From the NCBI RefSeq assembly GCF_900156535.1, contig NZ_FTNV01000002.1:62001-126000 (forward strand): a stretch of DNA of 64,000 nucleotides, read 5' to 3'. Origin of the DNA: Roseovarius nanhaiticus (lineage in GTDB: Bacteria; Pseudomonadota; Alphaproteobacteria; Rhodobacterales; Rhodobacteraceae). Every line of letters starts with the position of its first letter. Position 1 is the stretch's first letter. The translations under genes and the position numbers were made by a program. This document shows, piece after piece, positions 41,921-59,908 of this stretch. The notes under the pieces are model-generated. The model was not told the origin of the DNA and ran no database searches. It worked only from the letters and a program-made list of their open reading frames with translations.

Positions 41921-42172
41921 ATGCCTCACAAAATCCGTGTGGACTTCTCAACTCTACCTTCTAACGATGCTTCGTCGATCTCTCGTTACATCCTGCGCCC
42001 TACTCGGCACCTTGGGCCGCCATGCTTGCGAGAGTTCTCGTCCATCTCGAACTCAGAGTTGATACCTTTCCTGTCGATCAACCAGTCTAGACGACGGGGG
42101 CCTTGCCTCAACAGGGCTTTGTCGGCCAGACTGGCCACGATCAGGACCCAAAATTGCAAGAGACCGTCATGA
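41921..42172 (+). CDS. Possible small ORF coupled to the next secreted-protein gene
   Basis: 83 codons from ATG 41921, which has an AGAGGAG site 6 nt upstream; the stop overlaps the start of the next gene (ATGATG). The product is basic and Ser/Pro/Leu/Arg-rich with no recognised domain. Third-position GC is clearly below that of neighbouring genes, so it may be non-coding or transferred. The rest of the 41656-42168 gap shows no gene. Confidence 0.35.
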   Translation: MPHKIRVDFSTLPSNDASSISRYILRPTRHLGPPCLREFSSISNSELIPFLSINQSRRRGPCLNRALSARLATIRTQNCKRPS

Positions 42173-42786
42173 TGAAAATCGTTCTTCTTCCGGCCTGTTT
42201 TGTACTCGCTTCCGTTCATGCGCTGGCTGCGCAGACAATATCGCTGGACGAGCTAAAAGCGCAGATCGAACAGAAAGTCTCTAGCGAGGACGAATTCCGA
42301 ACGCTGCTCAATGATCCGGATCCGGCCCGCAGCATTGCGGCGATGGAACTCATGATGGCATCGGGCGATCCCGGCCTCGAGCGTATGGCACGCGAATTCG
42401 GTGTCTTCAGCAGTGATCCTGTGGTTCGGCGTTTGGCCATCGAGGCATGGTTGAAATCCGGTCCTGTGTTGAACATCACCTATGACGGCTCGGGCACGGA
42501 AAGCGCCTATTTCAAGAGTTATTTTCAGAACAACAAAGGTTCGGTCGACGGAGACAAGCGGGGTTTCACGAGCTTTCCCATCAATGGGTATGATGAGGCG
42601 AATGACTGTTACGTCTATGCCGCAGGCAACGCTTGCGCGATGCGCATCACGGATGTCGGGCCATCCGTTTTTCTATCGGATTCCTGGTCGCCGCTCACGC
42701 TTGGCGAGGACGGCTACATGAGAGGTCAGACAAATCTTTATCGTGTAGACGAGCCCATTCCGATCGAAATACCGGTGACGGACTAG
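42169..42786 (+). CDS. Secreted protein of unknown function
   Basis: 205 residues. Signal peptide (KIVLLPACFVLASVHALAAQ), then about 60 mostly helical residues (LDELKAQIEQKVSSEDEFRTLL, a HEAT/Armadillo-like pattern DPDPARSIAAMELMM ... SDPVVRRLAIEAWL) and a beta-rich C-terminal part with two cysteines (DCYVYAAGNACAM). No known family. Convergent with the trypsin-like gene 14 bp away. Opens the accessory block. Confidence 0.65.
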   Translation: MMKIVLLPACFVLASVHALAAQTISLDELKAQIEQKVSSEDEFRTLLNDPDPARSIAAMELMMASGDPGLERMAREFGVFSSDPVVRRLAIEAWLKSGPVLNITYDGSGTESAYFKSYFQNNKGSVDGDKRGFTSFPINGYDEANDCYVYAAGNACAMRITDVGPSVFLSDSWSPLTLGEDGYMRGQTNLYRVDEPIPIEIPVTD

Positions 42787-42799
42787 ACGCCGACGCGCT

Positions 42800-43849
42800 T
42801 CATTCAAATACAATCTGCTGGATACCGACGGGCCCGGGCGCATCGGCGCTGTAGATGCTGACGCTGATGCGCCGCACGCGTGTCCCGATTGCACGAGGTC
42901 CGGTATCCAGAATGCCGTCGCTGCCCATCTGCCCTGACCAGAAGGTGCGCATACGGCCAGTCTTTGCACCTGAAACGGCGATCCGGACGCGCAGCGGCAT
43001 CGCATAATCTGCGTCCGGATCAGACTTTATCCTCACCCGGGCCAGATCAGCGGCAGACTCCCCTGGTACCTGGAACTCCATTTCGACAACGCCCTCTGGC
43101 TGAAACACGAATGTCCCTTCCTCGCGCAGAAGATTTTCCGGGCCTGAATTTGCGTCCACGGGCAGGACGCCAACTTCTTCCAGAGCGACTTCAAAACCGG
43201 TGGCCTGGCGAACTGGCGCCAGCTCGGCGTCGCGGGCAAAGACCGCGCCGCGATCGCCAAGCCAACGGTTCAGGTTCATGGCCACTTCCTCGATCCGGAT
43301 GAACCGGGCATGGTCCGCGGAATCGGACTGGATCGCCATGCCAACAGGGCGGTCGTTCTGAAACAGGAATGCGCCGCTCATTCCCTCGGGGACCGTCCCC
43401 TGATCGACATTTGCCTCAATGAAGAGGTATCCGATATCGGCAATGCGCACCTGAAGACGGGCTATCTCTCCTTTTGGCAACAGATACTCCATGTCGGCCG
43501 TGTGCCTTGCGGGGCTGATGCCGGCGGCGTTCTGGAGGCTTGCCGTGCAGCGGGCCGCGACATCGCCGCGCGCCACCGCCACGGCCAGGTCCAGACCATC
43601 CCAGAATGGCGCATATGCATCTGCCGTCCCGGTGACGACAGGAGCTGCGGTGCTCAAGCGGATTTTGGGAAAGAGACCTCGCACATGGCGCGGCATCGCG
43701 ACGTAACAGGAGCCCGCGTAGCGGAACATGTAACCATGCCCCACTTCGCCCTCCCCATTTTCAATCGCGACCGTCTGCGCATTTGCCACTGGATCGAAAA
43801 AGGCGATCAGGGTTATGATCGAGATTAAAAAGCGATGGATTGCCGTCAT
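42800..43849 (-). CDS. Secreted trypsin-like serine protease family protein
   Basis: 349 residues. Signal peptide about 1-24 (cleavage near VANAQ). A chymotrypsin-fold domain is suggested by a spaced triad: His55 (AMPRHVRG), Asp87 (GLDLAVAV) and Ser158 (EGMSGAFLF), with VGMAIQSD as the usual strand after the Ser loop. A second beta domain of about 150 residues follows (VEMEFQVPGESAADLARVRI). The triad is intact but the flanking consensus is loose, so either an active protease or a relative. ATG 43849 overlaps the start codon of the divergent gene. Confidence 0.65.
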   Translation of the reverse strand: MTAIHRFLISIITLIAFFDPVANAQTVAIENGEGEVGHGYMFRYAGSCYVAMPRHVRGLFPKIRLSTAAPVVTGTADAYAPFWDGLDLAVAVARGDVAARCTASLQNAAGISPARHTADMEYLLPKGEIARLQVRIADIGYLFIEANVDQGTVPEGMSGAFLFQNDRPVGMAIQSDSADHARFIRIEEVAMNLNRWLGDRGAVFARDAELAPVRQATGFEVALEEVGVLPVDANSGPENLLREEGTFVFQPEGVVEMEFQVPGESAADLARVRIKSDPDADYAMPLRVRIAVSGAKTGRMRTFWSGQMGSDGILDTGPRAIGTRVRRISVSIYSADAPGPVGIQQIVFE

Positions 43850-44582
43850 GTCCAACCCATTTCGATTGTCTCTAATCTTGGGCCTGCTTTTAGCGCCTTG
43901 TGTCAACGCGCAACAGACCGATGACGCGATCTTCGTCAATCAGGCGAGCAATTTCAACGTAACTGTTCGCCAGACGGCGGAAATATCAGGCGCCCGTGTT
44001 CTGGGGGTGCTGCGTGCGCGGCATACATATGGCGACCGGCCCGAACTCTATGCGCATGTGCCCAGCGATTGGAAGGGTGCGTTTTGCGCACGGCTGGTCA
44101 CCGCGGACGGGTTTCTCGAGGCGACGGGAACCTACGACACGCAAGGTCGCACCGGCAGTTTTCACCGACTGGAATTCGGGTCCGACCAACAAAGCAATCG
44201 GGCATGGATGGACCGTTTACGCGATCTGCCGATCGACTCGGTTGCGATACGGGTGCGCGCAGGCGCGTGTGACGCCCCCGCCGGGCCTGATACCGTTGCG
44301 TTCTGGAACATGCCACCCAGCGGTGCCGGAGCCGAGCCGGCGAAACTCTACTTCAACTCGCTGCGCGCCAGCGATGTCATCCTTTATCAGGGCGACGCCG
44401 CAAAACCGGTGAAGTGCTCGATGATACGGACGGGCCTGCGCAAGGCGTATGACACGATTTGTCCGATCGAGGGCATGGCGGGGGCCGAGGGTCTTCCGAT
44501 GGAGATCAAACTCTTCGCGCTTCGCAATGGCGATGTCGATCCTCCGGTCATCTTTTCGCTGCATGGTCTGCCGCGCCCGTGA
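43848..44582 (+). CDS. Secreted protein of unknown function
   Basis: 244 residues from ATG 43848 (an upstream ATG at 43815 has a better ribosome site, AGGG). Signal peptide about 1-22 (LSLILGLLLAPCVNAQ). The mature protein is beta-rich with five cysteines (AFCARL, GACDAP, KCSMI, TICPI) that could form disulfides. No recognised family. First gene of a three-gene operon: stop overlaps the next start as GTGA. Confidence 0.65.
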   Translation: MSNPFRLSLILGLLLAPCVNAQQTDDAIFVNQASNFNVTVRQTAEISGARVLGVLRARHTYGDRPELYAHVPSDWKGAFCARLVTADGFLEATGTYDTQGRTGSFHRLEFGSDQQSNRAWMDRLRDLPIDSVAIRVRAGACDAPAGPDTVAFWNMPPSGAGAEPAKLYFNSLRASDVILYQGDAAKPVKCSMIRTGLRKAYDTICPIEGMAGAEGLPMEIKLFALRNGDVDPPVIFSLHGLPRP

Positions 44583-45544
44583 TCAGCCGCGCTGGCATAT
44601 ATCGCGCGCGCCGGATCTCTGGGCTGGCGGGCGCGTTGCTCACACCGTTATGCCTCGTTTTTGTTCTCGTCGCAGTGATCCTGTCGGCACATCGGCAGCA
44701 TTCGATCGTTCTGGGCGCCGAGACGACGTCGCTCGATATCATGTTTTCAGCGGGCGAAAATTACTGGCGGGTCGATGGGCCGGTGGAGCTGTGCCAATTC
44801 GGCGCGATGGGTGCGGGCGTGCGGAACGCCGAATTTGCCTGTGGCCCACCGCTATTCAAACGTACCGAGATCCGCGGCTTCGAGGTGAAATGGACGGAGG
44901 GTGCGTCGCTCAGGCTCTATGCCGACTACACCGGCGAGCTGCGCATCTTCATGGATAACGCGCCTGCGCGCTTCGAAGATATCGATGGCACGCCGTATGA
45001 GGTGCCTCCGGGCAGTTTCGTCAAGATGGGTCCAGATACTGCACGCAAGGCAGGGCTCTTCGCCTTCCTCGGCACGGCCTCCATGGGCCGGCCGGCCGGA
45101 CCAAACGAGACCAATTTCATCTACGACGGCAGTTACGAGGTTCGGCTGCCGGTGAACCGCTGGCTCTTTTTCGGATCGGACCGCGACGTGACCATCAAGA
45201 GCGGCGCGCTGGTGCGAGGGCACACGGCGTCGATAATGAAGGACGCCAAAAACGGTCCGGTGCTTGCCGAAGGGTTTGGTCATGTCGCTCTTGATCGCCG
45301 GGACACGGGCGACTACGCGCTTTCGGCGGTTTTCGTCGCCGCAAAGGACAAGACCCATCTGGAAGTGCAGCAATGGGGCCGAAGTTCCCCGGTTGTGGTC
45401 CGGCCAAATTGGATTGACGTGACCCTGAACAGCCCATTCATTCTGGGCTTTCTTGCCATCGCCGCTCTGGCACTCTCCGGTGCGCAGGTCTTCTACGATG
45501 CACTGGAGGCGCTGCTCGACTCCGATGACAAGCCCAGGACATGA
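44579..45544 (+). CDS. Membrane protein of unknown function with large periplasmic part
   Basis: 321 residues from GTG 44579 (GTGA overlap with the upstream stop). Transmembrane helix about 15-35, about 240 residues of beta-rich soluble domain, then a second helix near the C-terminus (FILGFLAIAALALSGAQVFY) and a short cytoplasmic tail. No known motif. Overlaps the lipase gene as ATGA, so translated together with it. Confidence 0.68.
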   Translation: MISRAGIYRARRISGLAGALLTPLCLVFVLVAVILSAHRQHSIVLGAETTSLDIMFSAGENYWRVDGPVELCQFGAMGAGVRNAEFACGPPLFKRTEIRGFEVKWTEGASLRLYADYTGELRIFMDNAPARFEDIDGTPYEVPPGSFVKMGPDTARKAGLFAFLGTASMGRPAGPNETNFIYDGSYEVRLPVNRWLFFGSDRDVTIKSGALVRGHTASIMKDAKNGPVLAEGFGHVALDRRDTGDYALSAVFVAAKDKTHLEVQQWGRSSPVVVRPNWIDVTLNSPFILGFLAIAALALSGAQVFYDALEALLDSDDKPRT

Positions 45545-46437
45545 TTTCTGCGCGCCCAGATCTTTGCGACGCTGCCGCTTGCGCTGCGGCAGCGGTGTAT
45601 CAGGATCGCCCGGTCGGAGCAGCCATCCCCCGGCTGCCCGGATATCACATTTTCGACTGTTTTGACTGCTCGACGGGACAGACGGGTTTCCAGGCCGCGC
45701 TGCTGCGCTGCGCGGCAACCGAAACGGCAATCGTTGCGTTTCGAGGCTCGGACGAGCATCTGGACCTGGCGGCGGGCATCAATCTCGGGCTCTGCCAATA
45801 CGGCGCAAATCGGGACAATCTGCTGGATGCAGTGACGTCGTTGCATGCATCTCATGTTCTGGTGTGCGGGCATTCTCTGGGCGGGGCGCTGGCGCAGTAC
45901 TTCGCTTATGATCTGATGGCGAAAAAGAAGGTGTCCGCTCAACGCGCGTTATCTCTTGTGACGTTCAACGGCGTCGGCGGTGTGGCGGGGCTGATGCGTC
46001 TTCACGGGAGTATTGATCCCGAGATGCGGGCAAAGCTCGAAACCGTCCATTTCGCGCATCCGGACGATATCGTTGTGGATATCGGCGGAAATCTGGGCTC
46101 GCAAATCCATCTACTGCCGGATGCCGACCCGGCTCCTGCGCCACTTCTCAAATGCCACGGGATGGATAATTTTCTGCCGGCGCAGGACGGTCAATCTCGA
46201 CTGACCGGACTTGCGGCAAGGCCGGACCGGCCGCTTCGTCTGGACCGCACCGCAGATCTTATCGGCCCGGAGCTTCAGCTTCTTATTCTGGAATGGATGG
46301 GCGGCCGCCGGGCATCCGCCACATTCAGGTTCCTGCGCTTGCTTCCGCGTATTCCGTCCGATGAAAGACGAGATGCCCTCAGGCTCATTTCGGCGCTGTC
46401 ACCGGTCCGCCCGAATTGGCGCGCCGTTGAACACTAA
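45541..46437 (+). CDS. Class-3 lipase / alpha-beta hydrolase
   Basis: 298 residues. Lipase_3 signature: oxyanion strand IVAFRGSDEHLDL (about 64-76), nucleophile elbow CGHSLGGALAQYF with Ser112, Asp175/176 in HPDDIVVDIGG and His206 in KCHGMDNFL. No signal peptide, so cytoplasmic or dependent on its membrane partner. Hydrolysis of a lipid ester is the family activity; substrate unknown. Last gene of the 43.8-46.4 kb operon, whose other two products are exported. Confidence 0.85.
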   Translation: MISARPDLCDAAACAAAAVYQDRPVGAAIPRLPGYHIFDCFDCSTGQTGFQAALLRCAATETAIVAFRGSDEHLDLAAGINLGLCQYGANRDNLLDAVTSLHASHVLVCGHSLGGALAQYFAYDLMAKKKVSAQRALSLVTFNGVGGVAGLMRLHGSIDPEMRAKLETVHFAHPDDIVVDIGGNLGSQIHLLPDADPAPAPLLKCHGMDNFLPAQDGQSRLTGLAARPDRPLRLDRTADLIGPELQLLILEWMGGRRASATFRFLRLLPRIPSDERRDALRLISALSPVRPNWRAVEH

Positions 46438-46505
46438 GCCGGTGCCGGGCGATGATCCGTTTGCGCCCCGTTTCCTGACGTTTGCCCTTCACAAGGCCAA
46501 GATTC

Positions 46506-49500
46506 TCAGAACTCGATCTCGAAATCTTCTGCGGCAGGCTCCTTTGGGGAAAGCGCGATTTGCGCTTGCTCGAGCCGGTCAAAATCCATGAGGATCACGC
46601 TAAAGCCTGAATGCCCGCTCGAGGCGTGCCTCTCTTCCATGTAGCTCAGCACCTCGCCGCAGCCTTCATACATGCCCGCGATGCTCTCGGGGAAATCCGG
46701 CATGCCCATCCTGTGGGCCGCCCCCTGAAAGTGCTGAAACCGCGTCTCGCCGCCATCTGCCGGAACCAGCCGCTGCTGGGCCTGCATGCCGAATGGCATG
46801 ACATAGCAATGCTCTCTGGGGGCGTTCCAGCCGCGCAACTCTTCTCCGGGTGTGACGAAATCCGGCTCTCCGTATTTTTCGGCCAGGGCGGCCACGATAC
46901 GGTCGTAGGGCAGCACGCCATCCGTCAGAACCATGCGGCGCATTATTCCGACGACTTTGCCGTCCGGCGCCCATGAGGCCAGCGTCAGCGCCTCCGTGCC
47001 GTTGCGCCTCAAGTAAACGCGCTGGTAGCCAAGCGCGCGCTGCGCAGCAGTTGCAGTCTCGCCCGGCGCAATCGATGTCGCGAACTCGGCGTCTATATCG
47101 TCGAATTCCGAGAGGACTGCAGCCGCGTCTTCCATGTCCTGGCCAGTCGCTATGCCCAGAAGATCGTACTTGGCCTCGCCGTCATCCTCCACCGTGATTT
47201 CCGGCCACTGGGCGGTGGCTTTTGGCGCGGGCGTGGCCGTGGCCGTGGCCGTGGCCGTGGATGGCTGGATAATCGCCTGTGCCGCGGCAAGCTGGTTGGG
47301 GTCCGCCTCGGTCACATTCTCCTCGCCCGACGCCGCCACGGGTTCGGACATGTCCGGCGCCTCCGGCTCGGTTTTTGCCTGCGTCGCCAGGAGGGGCCGC
47401 AAAGTGCCGTCGCTGATCTCGATCCGCGCGCCCGCCGCATCCCCCTTTAGAACGAGGCCATCCACGCGGCCTGCGCCCTCCACGCTCTCGACGGAGGTCA
47501 AGGTAAAGTCGATATGCGCGGCGATTGCATCTCTCGCAGAGCGACCTTCGTGAAGCGCGTCCTCGAGCACCAGCGCGGTCATCGCGCTTGTGCAGTGGTC
47601 GTCCGTCGCGTGGGGCCGGGTGTGCGAGATCGCATATCGCCGCGGAACCATGATCGGTCCTTCGCGCTCGCGCAGAAGCTGCGCAAGCTGGTTCTGATCC
47701 TCGCGCAGCGACGGGACCGCGGCCATGAGCTCTTGGGACATATGCCCGTACGCCTCGACAAATGCGCCGCAGGTGCGATCGGCATTCGCCATGATCCGCG
47801 CCGTGAAATCCTGCCCCAGCGCAGCGGCCTTGGCTTCGAGCCAGGATCGGCTCATCACGCGGTGGCGTGTCACCCACACCGTGTCCGGCAGAGGCTGCTC
47901 CGCATCGAAGAGGGACGGGCCCGGCACGTCGACATGGCGATCCGCCCAAGCGGCCGAGAGCAGAAGAGGCAGCCTTTCGTCCGTCGGCGTATAGCCGCCT
48001 CGGATCGCCAGAAGGTCGGCGACATGAGATGTCACCTGCAACCGGCGTTCGCTGAGGCCTGCAAATTCCTTCGCGTCGAACCTCCGGGTGATCCGCTCTT
48101 CGGCCCGTGCGTTCGCCTCACCGAACTGCCGTTCACCAAGGATCCGGGGCAAGTTGTTCTCGTCCTGCGTGTAGAACACTATCCGCTCCGGACGGACCAG
48201 AAGCGACACCTGATGCGCGCGCGACTGCGGCCTCGCTGCGGTTTCGGGCGTCAGCTCGGCAAGAAACATGATGTTGCGCGAACGCTGCTCGGCTATGAAA
48301 CGCGCGGTCGCCTGATCCATTTCCAGTGGCTCAAACGGGGTCGGGCCGACAAGGTTTATCGTCACCTGCAACCCGCCATGGCCTGCGCGGATGTTCAATG
48401 CGTCATGGCGAAACGCAAAGGTGCCCTTCTCGAGATCGTAAGTGTCCAGCGCAACACCGCTGCGGATGACAAGTGGATTGTCTGCCCCGGCACGCAATTG
48501 CGCGATCGTGGCTTGCGTGATTGCGGGCGCGTCGAACTCGTTGGCCTGCTGGACCTCCGGCATGAGGCTGGCAACGGTCTCGAAGCCACCCTCTCCGAGA
48601 AGTCGCGCAACATGGCCCGCGATAGCAATCCGGTCCGACGCCTCGGCGTCCGCCACCCTGCGCGCAAGATCGGATGCGACCGGAGTGGGCCGCTCTGCCG
48701 GGGACTGAGGGGCGGCGATGAGCATCTCTTCGACCGGAAAGGACATCACCTCCCACTCGAGGTTCGGGCCGGCATAGATACCTACACGCCGCAGCGTTCC
48801 CTGCCCGGTCTGCATCGCGCTGTTGCGGGGACTGCCAAACGCTTGCTCGACGTCTGACGTGTCCACGGAATAGTCGAAATTGGCCCACCAGACCAACCGC
48901 ACCAAGCGGTCCTGTGACATCTGGCGCAAGGCGCGCGCCTGATCGGTCGGGATCCGGATCTCTTCGGGCAGGTTGCCGAACCGCTCGGCGGAGGCAAGCC
49001 CCGCTTCGCGGCCATCAGTGGGAAGATCAACGACACGGTACTGCTGTTCGGAGAGGTTGCCCTGAATTGGAAAGCTCTCTTTGTCGAAATCATACTGACC
49101 GAGCGTCAGGACGACGCTGTGGCGCACCTGGACGGGCCAGGTCGGTGCCTGGGACAGAATTGAGTTGTAGTAGCGCTCGAAGAAGACCCGCTTGGCGTCA
49201 CGTCGGACGAATTCATCCGGAAAGGGATCTGACACGCGGCGCGCATCGGTCACCATAAGGGCAATGTTGGACCGCCCATAGCGAGGCTGCCCGAAAAAGC
49301 TTCGGTGATCGGTTTCCGACAGCAGGCCCTGAGCCACACCGATAAAGCCATTGCCTTCGCGGGGCACATCGGGATTCTGGCCCAGCCAGGCCAGCGCGGT
49401 GAACCGCCCCCACGCCGCCTCATGACCGCGCGCTGCGGGCAGTGGTACATCCAGCGCCTCGCCAGCAAGCGGCAGACCGAGGGATTGCGCCAGCGCAAGG

Positions 49501-51212
49501 GCGCTCTGCCCGCCTTCAACTTGCGCACCCCCATCACCCAACTGCCAGCGATAGACCGGATCGCTGCCGTGTTCGAGCGGCATGATCGAGCGGCGACGAC
49601 TGTCCTGTGCCACGAAATGCAATTCAGCGCGCTGCGGCTCGAGAGTGGCCGGGACACCGCGCGATGTGGGTTGTTGTGCGAACGCCTCTACGCTCTCATC
49701 CCGCCCGATGCGCGTGATCCGCCCCCAGATCACGATCCGGGGCTGATTGCCTTGTGTATTCTCTTCGGCAACGCGGTCGATGAAGGCCGCAGCCTCGGAC
49801 CGTTCGATGGCAAGCGGGCTGGAAATCTCGCTTGGCAATGTCACGACCATCGATCCGATCGGATAAGGCCGGGCGCTCAGGATCAATTGTGATGCGCCCC
49901 CGGTCAGCTCGAGCCCCGAGCCTTCCACGAAATCACGGGGCCGCGCGTGCAGATAGAGCGTCACGTCAATCGGATCCTCGGGCGTCACCGATCTGGCGGT
50001 CTCTGCTTCTTGCAACAGCGCAGTGCGCAGGGCCGCGCGGGAATCTTCCTTTTCAATCGGGTTCAAGGCGTTGAAAACACGGTCGGCGGGATCAGACTCG
50101 GCATTCTGCAATCGCCGGATGGCATCGAGAACATCGGTGTCGTCAAGCACGGAAGGATCTCGCTTGATCGCCAGCAGGGCAAGTCGGCGCGCGAGGCCTT
50201 CGGGCGCATCCACCAGTGTGCTTTGGTCGAAATGCGCGCGCGGCCCGGCCGGAATGGGAGCGTCATTTGAGGTGATTGATTGCGGCAAGAAACTGCCGGA
50301 ATTGTTTGTCCCAGGTTGCCCGCTCAACGCGAATTGGCTGCCAGACGGGATCGGCTCGACCGTGCCTCCGAGGGCATGAACGCGCACCCTCATACTGTGC
50401 GTGAGGCACTCCGCATCATCACGGCAAGCGTCCCGGCTCCGGAGCCAGGCCGACTGGTCGGCAGGGCGCCCACTTGACTTCCACGCCCTTGCAACAGCGC
50501 GGTCGAGCGCCGCGAGCGAGGGGTTGGCGCAGATCGCGATCTCGGTCGGGGTCTGGGCACGGCGACAGTCAAAGCTCGGCCCCGGGTCAGGCGCACCACC
50601 AGTCAACAGCACCAGTTCCGAGCGCGTCAGCGTCCCGGTGGGCGCTGTGCCGATACTGTTTTGGAACGCGGCAATGGCCGATCGCGTGCGCTGACCGGGT
50701 TGGCCATCGACCGGGCCTGCATCAAAGCCTCTCGCGTTGAGCGCCGATTGAATGCCGCGCGCCGCTTGTGCCAACTCCGCAGGGCTTAAACGCGTATCGC
50801 CGGGGGTGGCCGGTGACAATCCAGCGACATCCACGGTCACATGAGACGGCGTCGTGCCCTGCCCCCAGACCTGAACCTGTAACTTAACGGCCGAGCCTGA
50901 CCGAAGTGCCGCCTGCGCTGCGGGGGATATGCCGCCGCGTGCCACAAGGGACGGCATCCGCGCGCGCATCTCGCGGCTTTGGAAAAGCCCGTCGATTGTG
51001 TCGCCGGGCTGCTGCATGCCGAAACGGTGCACATTGGCACGATCCTGGGTCAGGATCGCTGCCGGATCGGACAGAACCGCCCCCGAAGAATTACGCAGAT
51101 CTACGTTCCCAATCTCGGCGACATAGCTCTCGATCAAGGATTGTGAGAGCACCGGGGAGACCAGCGCCGCAAATACCGCCGCGAACGCGGCCGTCCACTT
51201 TCGAGCGATCAT
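46506..51212 (-). CDS. Giant secreted protein with peptidoglycan-binding and LprI-like domains
   Basis: 1568 residues. Signal peptide 1-23 (ALVSPVLSQ); PG_binding_1 domain about 143-205 (IQSALNARGFDAGPVDGQPG ... AIAAFQNSIG); LprI/DUF1311-like Cys-rich domain about 213-282 (FDCRRAQTPTEIAICANPSL, ACRDDAEC) of the lysozyme-inhibitor kind; then over 1000 residues unlike any family I recognise, with a loosely duplicated beta unit (SSPLAIERSEAAAFI near 465 and FEPLEMDQATARFI near 990, and YDFDKESFPIQ / YDLEKGTFAFR); a Thr-Ala tract; a Cys-containing C-terminal domain. ATG overlaps the stop of the M15 peptidase gene (ATGA). Converges with the lipase operon. Confidence 0.85.
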   Translation of the reverse strand: MIARKWTAAFAAVFAALVSPVLSQSLIESYVAEIGNVDLRNSSGAVLSDPAAILTQDRANVHRFGMQQPGDTIDGLFQSREMRARMPSLVARGGISPAAQAALRSGSAVKLQVQVWGQGTTPSHVTVDVAGLSPATPGDTRLSPAELAQAARGIQSALNARGFDAGPVDGQPGQRTRSAIAAFQNSIGTAPTGTLTRSELVLLTGGAPDPGPSFDCRRAQTPTEIAICANPSLAALDRAVARAWKSSGRPADQSAWLRSRDACRDDAECLTHSMRVRVHALGGTVEPIPSGSQFALSGQPGTNNSGSFLPQSITSNDAPIPAGPRAHFDQSTLVDAPEGLARRLALLAIKRDPSVLDDTDVLDAIRRLQNAESDPADRVFNALNPIEKEDSRAALRTALLQEAETARSVTPEDPIDVTLYLHARPRDFVEGSGLELTGGASQLILSARPYPIGSMVVTLPSEISSPLAIERSEAAAFIDRVAEENTQGNQPRIVIWGRITRIGRDESVEAFAQQPTSRGVPATLEPQRAELHFVAQDSRRRSIMPLEHGSDPVYRWQLGDGGAQVEGGQSALALAQSLGLPLAGEALDVPLPAARGHEAAWGRFTALAWLGQNPDVPREGNGFIGVAQGLLSETDHRSFFGQPRYGRSNIALMVTDARRVSDPFPDEFVRRDAKRVFFERYYNSILSQAPTWPVQVRHSVVLTLGQYDFDKESFPIQGNLSEQQYRVVDLPTDGREAGLASAERFGNLPEEIRIPTDQARALRQMSQDRLVRLVWWANFDYSVDTSDVEQAFGSPRNSAMQTGQGTLRRVGIYAGPNLEWEVMSFPVEEMLIAAPQSPAERPTPVASDLARRVADAEASDRIAIAGHVARLLGEGGFETVASLMPEVQQANEFDAPAITQATIAQLRAGADNPLVIRSGVALDTYDLEKGTFAFRHDALNIRAGHGGLQVTINLVGPTPFEPLEMDQATARFIAEQRSRNIMFLAELTPETAARPQSRAHQVSLLVRPERIVFYTQDENNLPRILGERQFGEANARAEERITRRFDAKEFAGLSERRLQVTSHVADLLAIRGGYTPTDERLPLLLSAAWADRHVDVPGPSLFDAEQPLPDTVWVTRHRVMSRSWLEAKAAALGQDFTARIMANADRTCGAFVEAYGHMSQELMAAVPSLREDQNQLAQLLREREGPIMVPRRYAISHTRPHATDDHCTSAMTALVLEDALHEGRSARDAIAAHIDFTLTSVESVEGAGRVDGLVLKGDAAGARIEISDGTLRPLLATQAKTEPEAPDMSEPVAASGEENVTEADPNQLAAAQAIIQPSTATATATATPAPKATAQWPEITVEDDGEAKYDLLGIATGQDMEDAAAVLSEFDDIDAEFATSIAPGETATAAQRALGYQRVYLRRNGTEALTLASWAPDGKVVGIMRRMVLTDGVLPYDRIVAALAEKYGEPDFVTPGEELRGWNAPREHCYVMPFGMQAQQRLVPADGGETRFQHFQGAAHRMGMPDFPESIAGMYEGCGEVLSYMEERHASSGHSGFSVILMDFDRLEQAQIALSPKEPAAEDFEIEF
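47232..47260. repeat. Hexamer tandem repeat inside the giant gene
   Basis: Four perfect CGTGGC copies plus a partial fifth, coding for an alternating Thr-Ala tract before the C-terminal domain. A copy-number change would keep the frame and only change linker length. Confidence 0.85.
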
Positions 51213-52060
51213 TGTCCGGCTCCTTCCATCAATCTGCTGTAGAGGATCAATTCGGGTCGATATTCGAAATGCATGCCGTCAAAATGGTGCCACTTGCCGC
51301 CCCAGATGAAGCCGCGACGCTCCATCGCTTCGACCAGCGCCCAAGGCACCTTGTTTTCATAAGTACCGACTGCGCCTTCGGTCGCGCCGGACCAGCGCCA
51401 ATAGCCGCCAATCGCTGCGTTCACGTCGACAGCTATGCCGTAGGAATGTGCACTCAGGCGGTCTGTGCCCGCGATGCGTCGCCAGTTGTAGCTTCCCCCG
51501 ACATCCCGAAAGAGCGGCGCAATCTCGGCGGCACCAAGATCCAGATCCGCAACGGCGACGGCAAGTTGGCAGGCAACGCCGTGTCGGCGCGTGACACGAA
51601 ACCGGGCGGGACCGGCAGCGACCGTTTCGAGATCTTGCTCTACCGCGCCGGCGGTTTCGCCGTAGAGCAGCCCGAAAAAGCGTTCGCTTCGCGCGCGACC
51701 GGGATCATAAAATGGCGCCAACCGCAAATCCAGATTGCGCGACAGGGGATACAGGATGGCGAACTGATCACCGATTGTCGGCGTCTCGATAATTTGCCTG
51801 GCCGGACGCGATGTGGGGCCGTCCACGGAGATTACCGCTCCGCGATATGACATCCGCGGCGACGGCGCTGTTTGGAGGTCTGCCTCTGGATACGCGACGC
51901 TGATTGCCACTTGCCAGGGCGTTTGCCAGGACGCGGCGGGCAGAGGCTCTTGCAGGAAGTCACGGGGCGCGCAGCCCTGAGACACTGCAGGGCCATCGGG
52001 AACACCCACCAAAACCATCAGGGCAACGGCCCCGAGCACTCTCGCAAACGACTGTTCCAA
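51209..52060 (-). CDS. M15-type D,D-carboxypeptidase / endolysin-like peptidase, secreted
   Basis: 283 residues from TTG 52060, which opens a plausible signal peptide (RVLGAVALMVLVGVPDGPAVSQG). The C-terminal third holds the M15/VanY metal site: His205 and Asp212 in SAHSYGIAVDV and His264 in GMHFEY, with GGKWHHFD. The family cleaves peptidoglycan stem peptides or crosslinks. The open frame extends to 52177 but that part looks non-coding. Coupled to the 1568-residue protein by ATGA. Confidence 0.8.
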   Translation of the reverse strand: MEQSFARVLGAVALMVLVGVPDGPAVSQGCAPRDFLQEPLPAASWQTPWQVAISVAYPEADLQTAPSPRMSYRGAVISVDGPTSRPARQIIETPTIGDQFAILYPLSRNLDLRLAPFYDPGRARSERFFGLLYGETAGAVEQDLETVAAGPARFRVTRRHGVACQLAVAVADLDLGAAEIAPLFRDVGGSYNWRRIAGTDRLSAHSYGIAVDVNAAIGGYWRWSGATEGAVGTYENKVPWALVEAMERRGFIWGGKWHHFDGMHFEYRPELILYSRLMEGAGQ

Positions 52061-53161
52061 TGTCCTGTTCGCCCTGATTGAAGCGAGCAGGTATGCCCGC
52101 GCGAAGGTCGAGGAATTGAAGGATCGACTCAAACTACTTTGGTGATGATATTGCAAAGAAGGATTCAAAAGCCACAAATCTTTAAATTATGCAGCTTCAG
52201 GGAGAGTGCAGTATCAATGGCTTCGACTTGCCGTACCTGGGTTTCGTCGTGCCGCCTGTGGGCGCCCGCTGCCATAAATATGGGACGATCCATTCGGTGC
52301 GGACACGCTACTTTACCTCGGCTGCTTCCGTTCGGCTCAGTGCAAGTCCGCGCAAAAAGTCCTTGGCCCGCTCGGACCAGGGAAGGCGATCCAGCATAGG
52401 ATGAGACCTTTGGACTTGGGACTGTGAGGAATGCTTTGGTGAACTCATGGATAACAATACCATCCCAAAGACCGCCCCTCTCGGCCTTTGCAATGGCCGG
52501 CCTTCGGCTTGCAGCCAGGCTGGCAGCTTTACAAAAAATTTGGATATTCTTTGCGCAAGACGTGTCTAATCACCTCAGCGCCGTGCGTCATCAATGCTGT
52601 CGCTGGATACGCCAATCAAACCCCAGCGATCGATGCCCCAGCGACCAAAGCGCGGCCTGAGACGCCATCGGGGATCACCACTACTGCACTATGCGAGGTG
52701 TTCGGGTCCCGCATGCGGTTACCGGTGGTTATGGTTTGTCTCGGTCTCAGCACCTTGGCTGTCCTGAACAATGTCCAGACAGCCTCAGCGGGCACAGATT
52801 GGCTGGCTTACGCTCTTCTCTTTCCTGACTTACAGATCACCGTGATGATCCTCCGGCGCTCGATTGCGCCATTCAGGGGCGGATCGCCCCCCTCTCCCAT
52901 CCTCGTGCTGCTCTCGGCGGCGTTCCATTTATTTTCAGCGGGGACCACTGCCACCCTATCCCTTGGTCGCCGTCCTTTTGAGATGGGCTACGGAATGGCA
53001 TATCTGACAATCGTTCCACGGCCACAAACGGCGCCCAACCGGACGACTGCACCCTCGCGGGCGCCGAGACCCTGAGCGAACAAAGAGCCATTGAATGCGC
53101 CGCGCGGGCGGGCGATACCTTGGGCCATGACACAAGCGTTCCAGACCCCGCGCGCCACCCG
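52061..53161. other. 1.1-kb stretch without a convincing gene, lower GC
   Basis: Visibly richer in A+T than the flanks, with many short ORFs on both strands and no family match. The longest plus-strand frame (52488-53075) could contain a 120-residue membrane-like ORF from ATG 52713, but codon use is not typical and no ribosome site is clear. It must carry the promoter of the M15/giant operon. Possibly remnant of an inserted or decayed gene. Confidence 0.5.
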
Positions 53162-54118
53162 ATGAACAAGACCCCAAGCATACGGCGCTACACGCCAGAT
53201 GATGCCGAGGCGTGGAACGCTTTCGTTGCGGCCTCCGGCAACGGCACATTCCTGCATGATCGCGGCTTTATGGAGTATCACGCGGACCGGTTCACCGATC
53301 ATTCACTCGTCGTAGAGGCGGAAGGCGTCATCGTGGCGCTACTGCCCGCAAACCGCGACGGATGCGTCCTTAAATCCCATGGCGGACTGACCTACGGAGG
53401 CCTGATTACCGGCCCGTCCATGTCGGCGGCCCTGATGGTGGACATCATCGCAGCGCTGCGCGAGGCGCTGATTGCCGAAGGTTTTGAGCGTCTGATTTAC
53501 AAGGCGATCCCGCATATCTTCCATCGCTACCCCGCTGAACAGGACGTCTATGCGCTGATCCAGCAGGGCGCCCAGCTGTCGCAAGTTGACCTGTCATCGG
53601 CGGTGTCCCTCGGCCACGCGCCCAAAATGTCCAAGTCCAAACGCCAGGGCGCGACCCGTGCGCGCAAGGCCGGGCTGGAGCCGCGCGAGAGCGATGATTT
53701 CGCCGGGTTCTGGGAAATGCTGACCGCCCGGCTGAGCGACGCGCATGATGCCGCGCCCACGCACACTCTCGATGAAATCACGCTGCTCCGCGCGCGCTTT
53801 CCGGACCGTATCCGGCTTTACGTAGCCGACGGCGCGGCGGGGGCCGAGGGCGGTGTGGTGGTCTTCGACTGCGGCGGCGCGGTGCATGTACAATACATGG
53901 CGACGACGGATGCGGGGCGGCAGAACGGCGCGCTCGACCTGATTGTCGCGCATCTGCTGGCCGAGGTTTACGCAGACCGCGTCTGGCTCAATTTCGGCAT
54001 TTCGACAACAGATGCCGGGCGCATCCTCAATACCGGCCTTGCCCGGCAAAAGGAAATGTTCGGCGCCCGCAGCGTTCTTTTCACCCAGTACAACTGGGAT
54101 CTGCGCCAGACCAGCTAG
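53162..54118 (+). CDS. GNAT/FemAB-like acyltransferase
   Basis: 318 residues. N-terminal RRYTPDDAEAWNAFVAASGNGTFLHDRGFMEYH and the C-terminal half (HVQYMATTDAGRQNGALDLIVAHLL ... VWLNFGISTTDAGRILNTGLARQKEMFGA) match the GNAT/FemAB-like fold used for acyl or aminoacyl transfer onto sugars, peptidoglycan or O-antigen precursors. No signal peptide. ATG 53162 fits the family start better than a TTG upstream. Followed closely by a 111-residue ORF. Confidence 0.8.
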   Translation: MNKTPSIRRYTPDDAEAWNAFVAASGNGTFLHDRGFMEYHADRFTDHSLVVEAEGVIVALLPANRDGCVLKSHGGLTYGGLITGPSMSAALMVDIIAALREALIAEGFERLIYKAIPHIFHRYPAEQDVYALIQQGAQLSQVDLSSAVSLGHAPKMSKSKRQGATRARKAGLEPRESDDFAGFWEMLTARLSDAHDAAPTHTLDEITLLRARFPDRIRLYVADGAAGAEGGVVVFDCGGAVHVQYMATTDAGRQNGALDLIVAHLLAEVYADRVWLNFGISTTDAGRILNTGLARQKEMFGARSVLFTQYNWDLRQTS

Positions 54119-54616: not shown

Positions 54617-57600
54617 ATGCATTCGTTGAACTTCGCCACGAAAGAAGAGCTGGCGCGCGCCGGCCTCGCGCCGCCCGATATCGACATTTTCAACGAACTG
54701 CGCACCCGGCACGGCGAGTTGACCTCGGCCATGTTCGAAACTCCGCCAGACGGGATGAGCGAGCGCGGCGCGCTGATCCTGCTCGAGATGTTCAGCGGTG
54801 GCGACGCTGTGGACGCCCGGATGACCCGCCTCGCCCTGACGCTATCACCGGCGCCTCCCATTCCCAGCCGCGAGACGGCCACGCTCACCCTGTCCTACAA
54901 TAGCGATATCGACCGCGAATTTCGCACACTTGCCTTCGACATCACGCTGCGGGGCCCCAGCGATCTGAACGTCTACGACATCAGCCACGACCATATAATC
55001 GAGGCCGAGGTCCAGACAGAAGACGGCAACACCCTCATGTCGCGAACCGCGATGCGTGATCCGGCCAATCTGGACAGCGACGGGCTGATGGCAAGCTGGA
55101 CGCTCAGCCCCGGACTGCGCCCCGGCGAGCGTTGGGATCAGGATGGCGCCGAGATCTATGCACGCCTCCAGATCGAGACGCGCGAGAGGCGCGTGGCAGA
55201 GCCCGTCGATGCCGGCCCGCCTACCCGGATCCACCGCTCCGGGCGCTATCAGGTTCTGGGGCAGCCACAGTTCCGCTTTGACGGCTATACGCTTGCCATC
55301 GGGTTTCCCGGCGATGCACTTTTTGACGACCTCGGGTCGATCTTCACCGCGCCGAACCAGTCCAGCTTTGCACTGCTGAACCCTGTCGATCCCAAGCTTG
55401 ATGCCATCCGCCAGCGCCTCTCGTTCGAGCCAGCCAGCCTCGATTTCGAAGGCATGTTCGAGCTGGGCCCGCTCATGCGCGAAGGTGTGACGGCGCCCGG
55501 CTGGGTCTGGATGCTGTCGGGCCCCGACATCATGATCGGTTACGAGCCTGACGCCGATTTTTACGCGCCGCGCCCGGACTTGGTCATCACCCTGCCCGCC
55601 CGCGGCGCCGTCTCGGATGGCGGCGGCACGCCCTTCAACGTGACCGAGAAAAGCCTGCTGGACCGGCCCGAGCTATTTGCCGGTGATCCCGGCGTCAATT
55701 GCCGCCCGTTCGATCAGCCGGGCCGCATCCTGGGCGAGCGGCGGTTCTCGACCGCGCTGCGCGTGACGCAGCCCTATGTCGCAGAGTCCAAACAGACGAC
55801 CATATTCCCCACCGATGTGACCGAGCGGCCGGTGGATTATCCCCGCTCCGCCGCCGATGACGCACGCGAGATCGACTATGACAGCGACCCGCGCGCACTC
55901 TATCAGGCCAAGACCGTCACCTACGGTCACATCATCGAAACGGCAGTGCGCTATCGGTCCAATGGCTACAGCCTTGGCGACATCGCCTATTCGCTGACAC
56001 TGGCGCCGCGGCAAAAGCGGCAGATCGTCAAGATGGACTACATGCGCCGCGAGTCCGCCATGCGGATCGAAGACACGGTCTCCGATGACCAGGTCGCGGA
56101 CGAAACCGAGCGCACGCGCAGCTACGACAACGCGGTCGAGGCATCGCTGGACGAATGGGCGCGCGGCCGCTCGCGGGCGTCCACCACATCGGCGGCGGCT
56201 GGCATGGGCTTTGCCATGCCAGGCTTCGTCGCGGGTGGCGGCGTGGCCTCTTCGACATCCAGCAGCTCTTCGTCGCAGGAGGGCGGGCGCCGCACGGCGG
56301 CCAGCGAGACACAGGACCTGCGCGATTCCATTCGCCGCTGGGGCGAATCCGTCCGCTCGATGCAAAGTACCGTCATCACCGAGAACGAGCAGAGCGAGAG
56401 CATTCAAGGCGTCTCGGAGGTCATCCAGAACATCAATTACACGCGCTCGCTGTCGGTCATCTACTACGAAATCCTGCGCCACCTGCGCATCGACACCGAG
56501 ATCGCGGGAGTCAGCGAATGCCTCTACGTCCCGCTTCCGGTGCGTGACTTCACCGACACACGCATCCGGCGTTACCGCGATGTACTGCGCCGCTACGCGC
56601 GCGGCTATTGGGAGAAGCTGGCCTTTCGCCATCTCGACCATTTGCCCGATGATCTGGACAACAGCGACCTGCCCGAGGGGCGGCGCGCTGATCAGCCCCT
56701 GTCATCTCTGTCGGGATCGCTCTGGGTACGGATCGGCCTTGGCATGCCTGGCGAGGGCGAGGTCGCCGACGCCATCGCCGCCGCCACTGACAAGACCCTT
56801 ACCGAAGAGACCATCGGGTCGATCTATCAAAAGGCGTTCAGCGTTTTTGCACCCTATCTGGGCAGACCCGTCTCGACCCTCATCACCAAGAAATTCGCCG
56901 CATCGCCGGCCGAGCGCAATCGTTACTTCCAATCCGAAATCGCGCCCAACATGGCGCGCCGCTATATTGACGAACTGGTGCTGCTGGATGCCGATGACAA
57001 ACCGCTGAGCGCCGATTTCACCATGGCCTCATCCTACCGCTTCGGCAGTGTGTTGCGTGTCGATTTTACCGTCGACCTGGGCGAGGAAGACCTGAGCCGC
57101 GCGGATCTCGAGAAGCTGACCGTGCGCCTGAATGACAAATTCATTCCCGAAAGCGAGGGCGCCACGCCCGAACGCACGCTGCCCAAAAATTCATTTTTCA
57201 CCGTCACGCGCGCGTCACTGCGCTATGCCAATGACCTCTACGAGGCGTCCGCCAGCTCCGACAAGGGCGAGCGCGACCTGGTCTCGGGCGATGGCGGCGA
57301 GGCGGATCCCTCGGGCGCGCTCCTGACCTTCCGGCTCAGCTGGGCGGATCGGCGCAATATCCGCGACTTGGTTGCGGAAGCATACAAGAGCTTTACGGCG
57401 CGCCTCGCCGCGCGTCCGTTTTTCTATCACAAGGCGATCTGGTGGAACATGGACCGGGACGAGCTCTTTACCCTGCTCGACGGCTACGCCATTTCGCGCG
57501 ACGATCCGCGCAGCCTGGCCTCGGTGATCCAGCATCGGCCGCTGGGCATCGTGGGCAATTCGCTGGTGTTTCGCACGACCAGCGACACACCTCTGGATCC

Positions 57601-59908
57601 GATGTTCGATAGTTTCGACACGCTCAAGAACCATTATGTTGCGGGGCTGCGCCCGACCGATCCGATGCGCATCAGCCTGCCGACCGATGGGCTTTATGCG
57701 CGCGCGCATCTGGATGGCTGCGTCGCCGCCGAGGAACATAACGGCAGTTTTGAATGGGTCTTCGACAATGTCGAACCCGAGCTGGCGGGCCTGCCCGACA
57801 GCATCTTTGACCAGCGCCGCGCCGAGCCTGCGAACCTCACCCCCAGCGCCTTCCCCACGCCCATCATAAACCTTCAGAACGCGCCGCAGGCGCCGGGCGT
57901 GTCGGGCCTCGACGGCGTGTTGGGCGCGGTCCAGAATGCGGGCGCCTTCCGCGACATGGCGGGCCTTGCCGGCACGCAGGAAAACGTGCGTGCGGGTCTT
58001 GCCGCTTCGACGGGTCTGGCCACCGCCTTTGGCGGCATGGCCCTGCAAGGCGCGTTGGCGCAGATGGAATCGGACGCCAAGGCAGGCACCAACCTGAAGG
58101 CGATGATGGACGCGCTGAAGCAGGGTGTCGAAAAAGGTGTACTGACGGCCGATGGAGCAGCGGGCGCAGGCCAAGCCATGGCCGACCGCCTGGCCGCCGG
58201 GCAGGACGAAGCGCAAAAACAGCACGAGCGCGACACCGAAAAAGCGGCGCTTGGCGGCAAAGGCGGCGGCGAGGTCACGACCACCGGCAAGGACGGCACG
58301 CGCTCCGTCAAGAAGAACCCCGAGCCCGCAGAGGAACCCGGCAAGGCGCCCGCCAAACCGTCCAAGCCTGTCGGCCATGTCAAATGGTTGCCGCGCGGCG
58401 ACGGGCGGCAGGATCTGCTGCTTTACAATTTCAAGGTCGGCGATCTGACGCCTGCGTTGCACCCCGACCATATCGCCGCCCTGCGCGCCATCTCGGTTCA
58501 GATCAAGGGCGTCGAAGACATCGAGGCGATCGAGGGCCGCGCCAGCGCCACCAAATCGAAAACGGATGACCCCGAGGAAAAGAACGAGGATCTGTCCATC
58601 GCCCGCATGGAATTGGTCTGGATCGAATTGATGCGCTACGCGCTGGCGCCTCAGAGCAATATCGACAAGCAGAAATATCTGTCGGACGACGATCCCATCC
58701 GCGCGCGCTACACCGCCGAGCTTTCAGGTATCGACGATGGTGTCGGCGATGAGGACCCCGTGGAGCGCAGCGTGTTTGTCAAACTCGCCCGCAAGGTGGA
58801 CCCGAAACCCAAACCAAAGCCCGTGCCCGAAATTCCCGACGGCTTCGACATCCCCGAGATCACCTGTGTCGGGCACACGCTGAATATCGGCGACGACATC
58901 ACCATCGTTGTGCAGAACAACACGTTCATTCAGAACAACACCAAGATTGTCGGTGGCGATGACCTCTCGGGCCTTACCGTGCAAAGTGCCGATGGCAATA
59001 CCGGCAACATCGTCATCGGCAGCCCCGGCGCCGAGGTCGAGATGACAGCGACACTGCCCACCGACACGCCCGGCAAAACGCCCGAGGTATCGGTCGACGC
59101 CGCCCCGACCCGCTTGTGGCATATCGACATCTCGCAGCCCCGCGTCAGCGGCGCCTCGCCCGACGAGCTTTTGGACCAGCTGGAGGCGCTTCTGCGCGCG
59201 GCGGCCAATGTGGCGGACACGACGCCCAGCGCCGAGATGTCCATCGGCATTCCCGGTGTCGGCGAGGTGAAACTGAGTGAAATCAACGGCCCAAAGACCA
59301 TCCTGACGTTCTTCTCCGAAGTGGCGACGGCGGTGATCGGCCAAGGCAGCATGGTGCGCAAGACCCTACGCGGCCTCATGACCGGCACCGTGGAAGTGGA
59401 TGTGCGCATCCATGCGCGCCCCGCCTCGGCGCCGGACCGAACGGACAAATGGATTGGCCGCACCTTCACCCTGTCTGGCCCAGGCACCTATTACGCGCGC
59501 GAGGTCGAGAACCCGACCGCGACCATCGAGGGCGTGCGCAAGTTCAAGTATGAGACCGCGTCGGCACATCGCCTCAGCGATTGGGAGTTCCTGCCCGCGC
59601 TCAGTACCGCGCAACTGAAATTCAAGAACGGCTCGCTGCCACAGGATATCCTCGATCTGGCGTCATTCCTGAGCGAGCTTTTGAGCCTCGTACGCCGTAG
59701 CGACATGCCAAGCGGGCTTGATGTGGTGGAGAGCGAGATCGAGGCGTTCATATCAAAGATCGACTTCGTCTCGCGCTTCATCGGGCACACGGAAGATTTC
59801 GTGTTCAAGCCAAGCGGCGAGATCGAGGAGCGCGCGAACGACATCACCGTCGGCCGCTCGGTCACCATGTTCGACCTGCCGAGCGGCAGTTTCCGGGCCA
59901 AGACATAA
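54617..59908 (+). CDS. Giant protein with OmpA-like domain, unknown function
   Basis: 1763 residues from ATG 54617 (GGGAG site 6 nt upstream). No signal peptide. Several beta-rich segments about 1-430; a block YGHIIETAVRYRSNGYSLGDIAYSLTLA at about 436-463 leading to KRQIVKMDYMRR; Gly/Ser linker about 535-560 with a Ser run; helical part; hydrophobic Gly/Ala segment about 1090-1170; then an OmpA/MotB-like domain about 1266-1392 (LLLYNFKVGDLTPALHPDHIAALRAI, NEDLSIARMELVWIELM, DPVERSVFVKLARKV), a Lys-Pro linker, and a beta C-terminus with NNTFIQNNTKIV. A promoter-like pair TTGCGA-17-TAGCGT lies at 54476-54504. Function unknown. Confidence 0.82.
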   Translation: MHSLNFATKEELARAGLAPPDIDIFNELRTRHGELTSAMFETPPDGMSERGALILLEMFSGGDAVDARMTRLALTLSPAPPIPSRETATLTLSYNSDIDREFRTLAFDITLRGPSDLNVYDISHDHIIEAEVQTEDGNTLMSRTAMRDPANLDSDGLMASWTLSPGLRPGERWDQDGAEIYARLQIETRERRVAEPVDAGPPTRIHRSGRYQVLGQPQFRFDGYTLAIGFPGDALFDDLGSIFTAPNQSSFALLNPVDPKLDAIRQRLSFEPASLDFEGMFELGPLMREGVTAPGWVWMLSGPDIMIGYEPDADFYAPRPDLVITLPARGAVSDGGGTPFNVTEKSLLDRPELFAGDPGVNCRPFDQPGRILGERRFSTALRVTQPYVAESKQTTIFPTDVTERPVDYPRSAADDAREIDYDSDPRALYQAKTVTYGHIIETAVRYRSNGYSLGDIAYSLTLAPRQKRQIVKMDYMRRESAMRIEDTVSDDQVADETERTRSYDNAVEASLDEWARGRSRASTTSAAAGMGFAMPGFVAGGGVASSTSSSSSSQEGGRRTAASETQDLRDSIRRWGESVRSMQSTVITENEQSESIQGVSEVIQNINYTRSLSVIYYEILRHLRIDTEIAGVSECLYVPLPVRDFTDTRIRRYRDVLRRYARGYWEKLAFRHLDHLPDDLDNSDLPEGRRADQPLSSLSGSLWVRIGLGMPGEGEVADAIAAATDKTLTEETIGSIYQKAFSVFAPYLGRPVSTLITKKFAASPAERNRYFQSEIAPNMARRYIDELVLLDADDKPLSADFTMASSYRFGSVLRVDFTVDLGEEDLSRADLEKLTVRLNDKFIPESEGATPERTLPKNSFFTVTRASLRYANDLYEASASSDKGERDLVSGDGGEADPSGALLTFRLSWADRRNIRDLVAEAYKSFTARLAARPFFYHKAIWWNMDRDELFTLLDGYAISRDDPRSLASVIQHRPLGIVGNSLVFRTTSDTPLDPMFDSFDTLKNHYVAGLRPTDPMRISLPTDGLYARAHLDGCVAAEEHNGSFEWVFDNVEPELAGLPDSIFDQRRAEPANLTPSAFPTPIINLQNAPQAPGVSGLDGVLGAVQNAGAFRDMAGLAGTQENVRAGLAASTGLATAFGGMALQGALAQMESDAKAGTNLKAMMDALKQGVEKGVLTADGAAGAGQAMADRLAAGQDEAQKQHERDTEKAALGGKGGGEVTTTGKDGTRSVKKNPEPAEEPGKAPAKPSKPVGHVKWLPRGDGRQDLLLYNFKVGDLTPALHPDHIAALRAISVQIKGVEDIEAIEGRASATKSKTDDPEEKNEDLSIARMELVWIELMRYALAPQSNIDKQKYLSDDDPIRARYTAELSGIDDGVGDEDPVERSVFVKLARKVDPKPKPKPVPEIPDGFDIPEITCVGHTLNIGDDITIVVQNNTFIQNNTKIVGGDDLSGLTVQSADGNTGNIVIGSPGAEVEMTATLPTDTPGKTPEVSVDAAPTRLWHIDISQPRVSGASPDELLDQLEALLRAAANVADTTPSAEMSIGIPGVGEVKLSEINGPKTILTFFSEVATAVIGQGSMVRKTLRGLMTGTVEVDVRIHARPASAPDRTDKWIGRTFTLSGPGTYYAREVENPTATIEGVRKFKYETASAHRLSDWEFLPALSTAQLKFKNGSLPQDILDLASFLSELLSLVRRSDMPSGLDVVESEIEAFISKIDFVSRFIGHTEDFVFKPSGEIEERANDITVGRSVTMFDLPSGSFRAKT

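Follow-up and report, generated by a model that had tools for sequence, protein, structure and literature searches.

A stretch of 64,000 nucleotides from Roseovarius nanhaiticus (contig NZ_FTNV01000002.1, positions 62,001 to 126,000; hereafter the window) contains a run of seven genes at 42-52 kb, most of which encode exported proteins, and the question raised by this locus is whether these genes constitute one system or are separate units placed side by side. The original prediction took all seven as an undescribed envelope-remodelling, defence or antagonism module, in which hydrolases are accompanied by "matching protective domains". An undescribed envelope system is indeed present in this accessory block, but its extent and logic are different from those predicted: namely, the conserved system is a quartet of genes encoding a trypsin-like protease and three further proteins, called here U1, opA and opB.

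Genes of the locus

All seven predicted open reading frames are present where they had been placed, with overlaps as described from the coordinates. The features are as follows.

42169-42786, + strand: U1, an exported protein of about 205 amino acids; core member 1, beside the protease in nearly all of 36 genomes
42800-43849, - strand: exported S1 trypsin-fold protease with a C-terminal discoidin/F5-8C-like domain; core member 2
43847-43850, no strand: CATG palindrome in the sequence, with the start codons of the divergent protease and opA
43848-44582, + strand: opA, an exported protein of about 244 amino acids with four invariant Cys residues; core member 3
44579-45544, + strand: opB, an inner-membrane protein with an invariant Cys pair (AlphaFold model, alignment); core member 4
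45541-46437, + strand: class-3 lipase (Pfam Lipase_3), a local passenger
46506-51212, - strand: an exported protein of 1568 amino acids with PG_binding_1 and LprI-like domains (Pfam, relatives), called here the giant
51209-52177, - strand: M15 peptidase (Pfam Peptidase_M15_4), partner of the giant

Four bases are common to opA and opB (GTGA, 44579-44582), to opB and the lipase gene (ATGA, 45541-45544) and to the M15 and giant genes (ATGA, 51209-51212); the listed reading frame of M15 begins at TTG, and its likely start is nearer 52066. When the sequences were read for a hydrophobic export signal or membrane helix at the N-terminus, six of the seven proteins were found to have one, as had been predicted, and the lipase was the exception. 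GC content is 0.58 at 42-44 kb versus about 0.64 in the surroundings. In ten relatives of the same genus, furthermore, the ccmI-tauE-dusA backbone is largely kept and no gene of the block is found after dusA; the block is therefore accessory.

A conserved quartet of genes

U1, the protease, opA and opB were found together in 36 distinct genomes, as counted once duplicate records had been removed, and the quartet was complete in 36/36. The order of U1 forward, protease reverse, and opA and opB forward is retained in 34 of these genomes; the remaining two are rearranged, with opA-opB-protease and a convergent U1 in G112 and with U1 displaced beyond opB in G349. The linkage thus outlasts rearrangement, which argues for function. 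Searches starting from single members led to the same result: opB gave six other genomes, each with all four genes together at unrelated sites; a search of the taxonomic family with the protease, covering 395 genomes, gave the window's own and another 13, and a search of the taxonomic class gave four genomes more than had already been found, all with the quartet. The 20 named loci obtained by scanning 84,980 species genomes with U1 were also all complete. In addition, opB was detected in 23/24 protease-positive genomes, the exception being the G112 copy that is too divergent for the threshold used, and in 0/35 protease-negative ones. The first four genes are hence one unit, and the remaining genes of the block are separate neighbours.

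Hosts of the quartet include Roseovarius, many other Rhodobacterales and a rhizobium, together with a plasmid of Tistrella and plasmid pC of Cereibacter sphaeroides 2.4.1. Eight plasmid records carry it, namely Tistrella mobilis pTM2 and seven plasmids of Cereibacter sphaeroides, each about 105 kb long, pC of strain 2.4.1 among them. The pC genes of the quartet are DQL45_RS22020, RS22025, RS23585 and RS22035. No phage record with the quartet was found when the phage collection was searched with the protease, and the quartet proteins had no PHROG match; a phage origin was accordingly rejected. We also noticed that U1 occurs as an orphan, without the other three partners, in G245 and G247 (U1-like sequences at L106 2586-3401 and L107 7070-7717), so that U1 is not strictly bound to them. 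Two or three copies of U1 are present in L041, L058, L062, L063, L064, L092 and L094, and the copies are in tandem in several loci.

All four genes are under purifying selection, with a dN/dS of 0.08-0.10 for each of them between the window and G056. Comparing the distance matrices of the families with one another gave correlations with r of 0.75-0.87, a level reached in 0/2000 permutations and due in part to the shared history of a linked block. Protease copies within the one genus are down to 27% identical, whereas the protease of the Tistrella family is up to 51% identical to one copy of that genus, by which horizontal transfer is indicated. Transfer is also backed by the plasmid copies in Cereibacter and Tistrella and by the dip in GC content. 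These comparisons indicate that the quartet moves horizontally as a unit among many alphaproteobacteria.

The protease and opA genes are divergent, and their start codons fall within one CATG in the window. In a comparison of 33 loci (the window and 32 others), the relative antisense frame of the two genes is identical in 29, and 22 would allow a common CATG; these loci are related to each other, so that the counts are not independent, and the start codons were set by eye and with a simple hydropathy score. Such an arrangement leaves no intergenic space for ordinary promoters, and each promoter is thus probably located inside the opposite gene.

Lipase, M15 peptidase and giant

The lipase is supported by a match to Lipase_3 (PF01764; 34.2 bits versus a cut-off of 22) and by a GHSLGG motif. 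It had no counterpart in any other Rhodobacteraceae genome of the sample, which comprised 100 relatives and 218 genomes of the family; the one distant match, with 28% identity, was in G098 of another family. The lipase is also absent from the other quartet loci and is a local passenger outside the conserved system.

M15 and PG_binding_1, like the lipase domain, score over their Pfam cut-offs as predicted (Peptidase_M15_4, PF13539, 70.3 bits versus 25; PG_binding_1 of the giant, 34.6 bits versus 23), but the LprI-like domain of the giant (PF07007) falls below its cut-off with 15.7 bits versus 22; the homologous stretch in L094 passes the same cut-off with 24.5 bits. Full-length relatives of the giant were found in 2/119 other genomes (G050 and G067, 67-68% identity), in both of which M15 immediately precedes the giant and no other gene of the block is close by. 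The M15 partner is 64-66% identical in L021 and L023, and the pair in G050 is about 0.56 Mb away from the quartet. M15 and the giant are therefore a second, separate pair, seen in three genomes of the same genus. Pieces of a relative of the giant, with about 41% identity, were also noticed in G185 without M15, and the relative with 37-41% identity at L105 5246-10095 is spread over at least three reading frames and is possibly decayed. Residues 1-146 of the giant (window 50773-51212, - strand) represent an N-terminus of about 140 residues that recurs as small proteins in many genomes of the same genus, in tandem in G004 and G013; this unnamed exported domain family is mostly found without the rest of the giant.

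Past opB, the window has the lipase, L065 and L066 have PG-binding proteins, and L094 has a PG_binding-LprI protein. In C. sphaeroides (L057/L099), a co-directional run past opB comprises two small genes of unknown kind and the gene of an exported caspase (Peptidase_C14, 92.4 bits; region L099 3458-5903). A variable cargo past opB was nonetheless rejected as a rule, because most loci have nothing co-directional and close there. As a separate observation, a protein of 1628 amino acids with a PAN domain and an alpha-2-macroglobulin-like region, recognized by eye from its YGCTEQ thioester motif, is encoded about 0.85 kb past opB in L061; alpha-2-macroglobulin-like proteins trap proteases. In the window, a FemAB/GNAT-like protein (53165-54118, + strand; Acetyltransf_6, 23.6 bits, with pepcterm_femAB under its cut-off) lies between M15 and a protein of 1763 amino acids (54617-59908, + strand). 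The latter lacks an obvious export signal, is unmatched in Pfam, NCBIfam, PHROGs and PADLOC and was found in no other of the 100 relatives searched.

These results bear on two wider readings of the locus. That the whole block at 42-52 kb is one envelope-remodelling module, as originally proposed, would be in line with the common location and with the four-base gene overlaps including that of opB and the lipase gene; however, linkage elsewhere is limited to the first four genes, the lipase is found only here, M15 and the giant have other neighbours, and quartets elsewhere are without all three. The prediction had itself suggested following the lipase, M15, the trypsin-like protein and the giant across genomes and had named scattered homologues as evidence against a common set; the lipase and the M15-giant pair do part from the quartet, the former being confined to its own genome and the latter standing as a pair of its own in G050 and G067. 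A conserved unit of seven genes was hence rejected, the single-module reading is highly improbable, and the idea of hydrolases accompanied by matching protective domains is unsupported. A narrower version would regard the PG-binding giant, with M15, as an optional fifth partner that targets the quartet to peptidoglycan. A PG-binding protein is near the quartet in a minority of loci (the window, L065, L066, L068 and L094), and G000, G304, G120, G224 and L094 encode a PG_binding_1 protein no more than a few kb away from it; the PG_binding-LprI protein of L094, which is 33% identical to the giant over 249 amino acids, starts 55 bp past opB. With mostly 7-13 PG_binding_1 matches per genome, about 0.7 such neighbours were estimated to be expected in 24 genomes, versus 4 seen. 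This excess is suggestive only; three of the PG_binding neighbours belong to one related quartet subclade, the M15-giant pair has no quartet beside it in G050 and G067, and most quartets are without such a neighbour, so that a fifth partner of this kind is unlikely.

Anatomy of the quartet proteins

The protease has its catalytic triad (H55/D87/S158) and a Cys pair (C48/C101) invariant in 20/20 and 21/21 aligned sequences, the latter being the modelling set. AlphaFold modelling, which covered the protease and opB, gave a trypsin/DegS-type fold with a pLDDT of 87. In Foldseek, the model matched V8, Esp, DegS, DegP and MucD with a probability of 1.00, and the TM(target) against DegS, DegP and MucD was up to 0.70; the best single fold match was 6pym, and 1qy6 was also matched (V8/Esp, 12-13% identity). 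Its C-terminal domain matched discoidin/F5-8C structures with a probability of 1.00 and CBM/F5-8C sequences weakly. No match was obtained in Pfam, including that for a PDZ domain, or in NCBIfam, PADLOC and PHROGs. The prediction of a trypsin-like protein with an intact triad nevertheless agrees with the fold and the invariant triad, although Pfam is silent. From its export signal and Cys pair, the protease is predicted to be active in the periplasm.

U1 has a HEAT-like helical N-terminus, whose profile matches designed HEAT-like repeats with an E-value of 1e-4, and an invariant Cys pair (C147 and C156) in the C-terminal half of its alignment. The opB model (pLDDT 86, pTM 0.78) begins and ends with a transmembrane helix, and the periplasmic domain enclosed by the two is beta-rich. 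It has no meaningful fold match in the PDB or among viral proteins; hits to viral proteins and to botulinum receptor-binding domains, with a TM of about 0.1, were discarded as noise. U1, opA and opB belong to no family in Pfam, NCBIfam, PHROG or PADLOC. Each of the four families has an N-terminal signal or membrane helix, and these features together with the invariant Cys pairs fit an oxidising periplasm, in which the quartet products are thus likely to be located.

A putative periplasmic protease complex and its alternatives

We consider, with a probability of roughly 60%, that the quartet is a horizontally mobile envelope cassette whose products act as a membrane-tethered periplasmic protease complex, the complex itself being suggested by the gene linkage. 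All four products would act in the periplasm, tethered to the inner membrane: opB, with its two transmembrane helices and beta-rich periplasmic domain, would be the anchor, and opA, translationally coupled to opB, would be its soluble bound partner. The protease would be the effector and may bind a surface ligand through its discoidin-like domain, and U1 might use its HEAT-like face to hold or inhibit the protease as long as no target or stress is present.

More specific readings are also conceivable. As a tentative possibility, the quartet would be a new self-contained conflict or surveillance system of the envelope, spread by plasmids among alphaproteobacteria, in which opB and opA form an inner-membrane sensor of new fold that licenses the exported trypsin and U1 proteins serve as its dedicated HEAT-like inhibitors. 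The protease could instead be a toxin that works within the envelope of neighbouring cells, with U1 as the periplasmic immunity protein and with opA and opB presenting or retaining the toxin. Duplication of U1 two- or threefold in seven loci and its orphan state in two genomes are often the case for immunity genes, and U1 adjoins the protease in all loci except G349; these differences in copy number and the orphans do no more than suggest toxin neutralisation, however, and toxin-immunity is quite unlikely given that no trafficking domain, secretion-system link or variable toxin tip was found, that the protease is one conserved family and that the four genes are under similar constraint. Envelope defence, with the cassette degrading proteins of phages, transfer agents or bacteriocins at the envelope, would suit the patchy, mobile and plasmid-borne distribution and yet appears distinctly unlikely: the flanks, judged by eye, hold mainly genes of metabolism, transposases or phage-like fragments instead of known defence genes, the quartet was not found in phages, and a known defence family was rejected since none of the nine proteins searched matched a family in PADLOC-DB 2.0.0 (0 families).

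Comparison with known systems and significance

As an exported trypsin-fold protease with a His-Asp-Ser triad and with Foldseek matches to DegS, DegP and MucD, the quartet protease resembles the HtrA family (DegS-DegP; S1C) and may work like HtrA. It has, however, a discoidin-like domain and no PDZ domain and should hence not be classed as an HtrA member; the quartet also has three dedicated partner families, contains no sigma or anti-sigma gene and is accessory, not core. Staphylococcal V8/Esp glutamyl endopeptidases (S1B) give the best single fold match and likewise have no PDZ domain, but the quartet protease is only 12-13% identical to them, has the extra C-terminal domain and is in a quite different gene context. 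Trypsin-like peptidases in mobile multi-gene bacterial systems are known from CARD-NLR/LypABC (PMC13236601) and from nuclease-protease pairs (PMC12799240), which are cytosolic immune systems with ATPase/NLR and nuclease partners, respectively; neither paper mentions the periplasm or signal peptides. In contrast, the quartet is exported and has no NLR/ATPase or nuclease partner, as no Pfam, NCBIfam or PHROG family was recognised in U1, opA or opB. Trypsin domains also occur in accessory conflict systems that are NTP-dependent according to the title of the report (PMC7159879), whereas the quartet has no recognisable NTPase. In the literature searched, with subscription papers and preprints outside its scope, no description of such a cassette was found.

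In conclusion, the quartet is rated as an S1 protease system of the envelope that comes with three new families of partners. One mobile package joins a trypsin-type enzyme to three families without a database match, and the opB domain, modelled with confidence, resembles no known fold. If the function is defence or antagonism, the quartet would represent a periplasmic proteolytic type absent from the catalogues searched. Since Cereibacter sphaeroides 2.4.1, a standard strain in the laboratory, carries the quartet on plasmid pC, the envelope role is directly testable in this organism.
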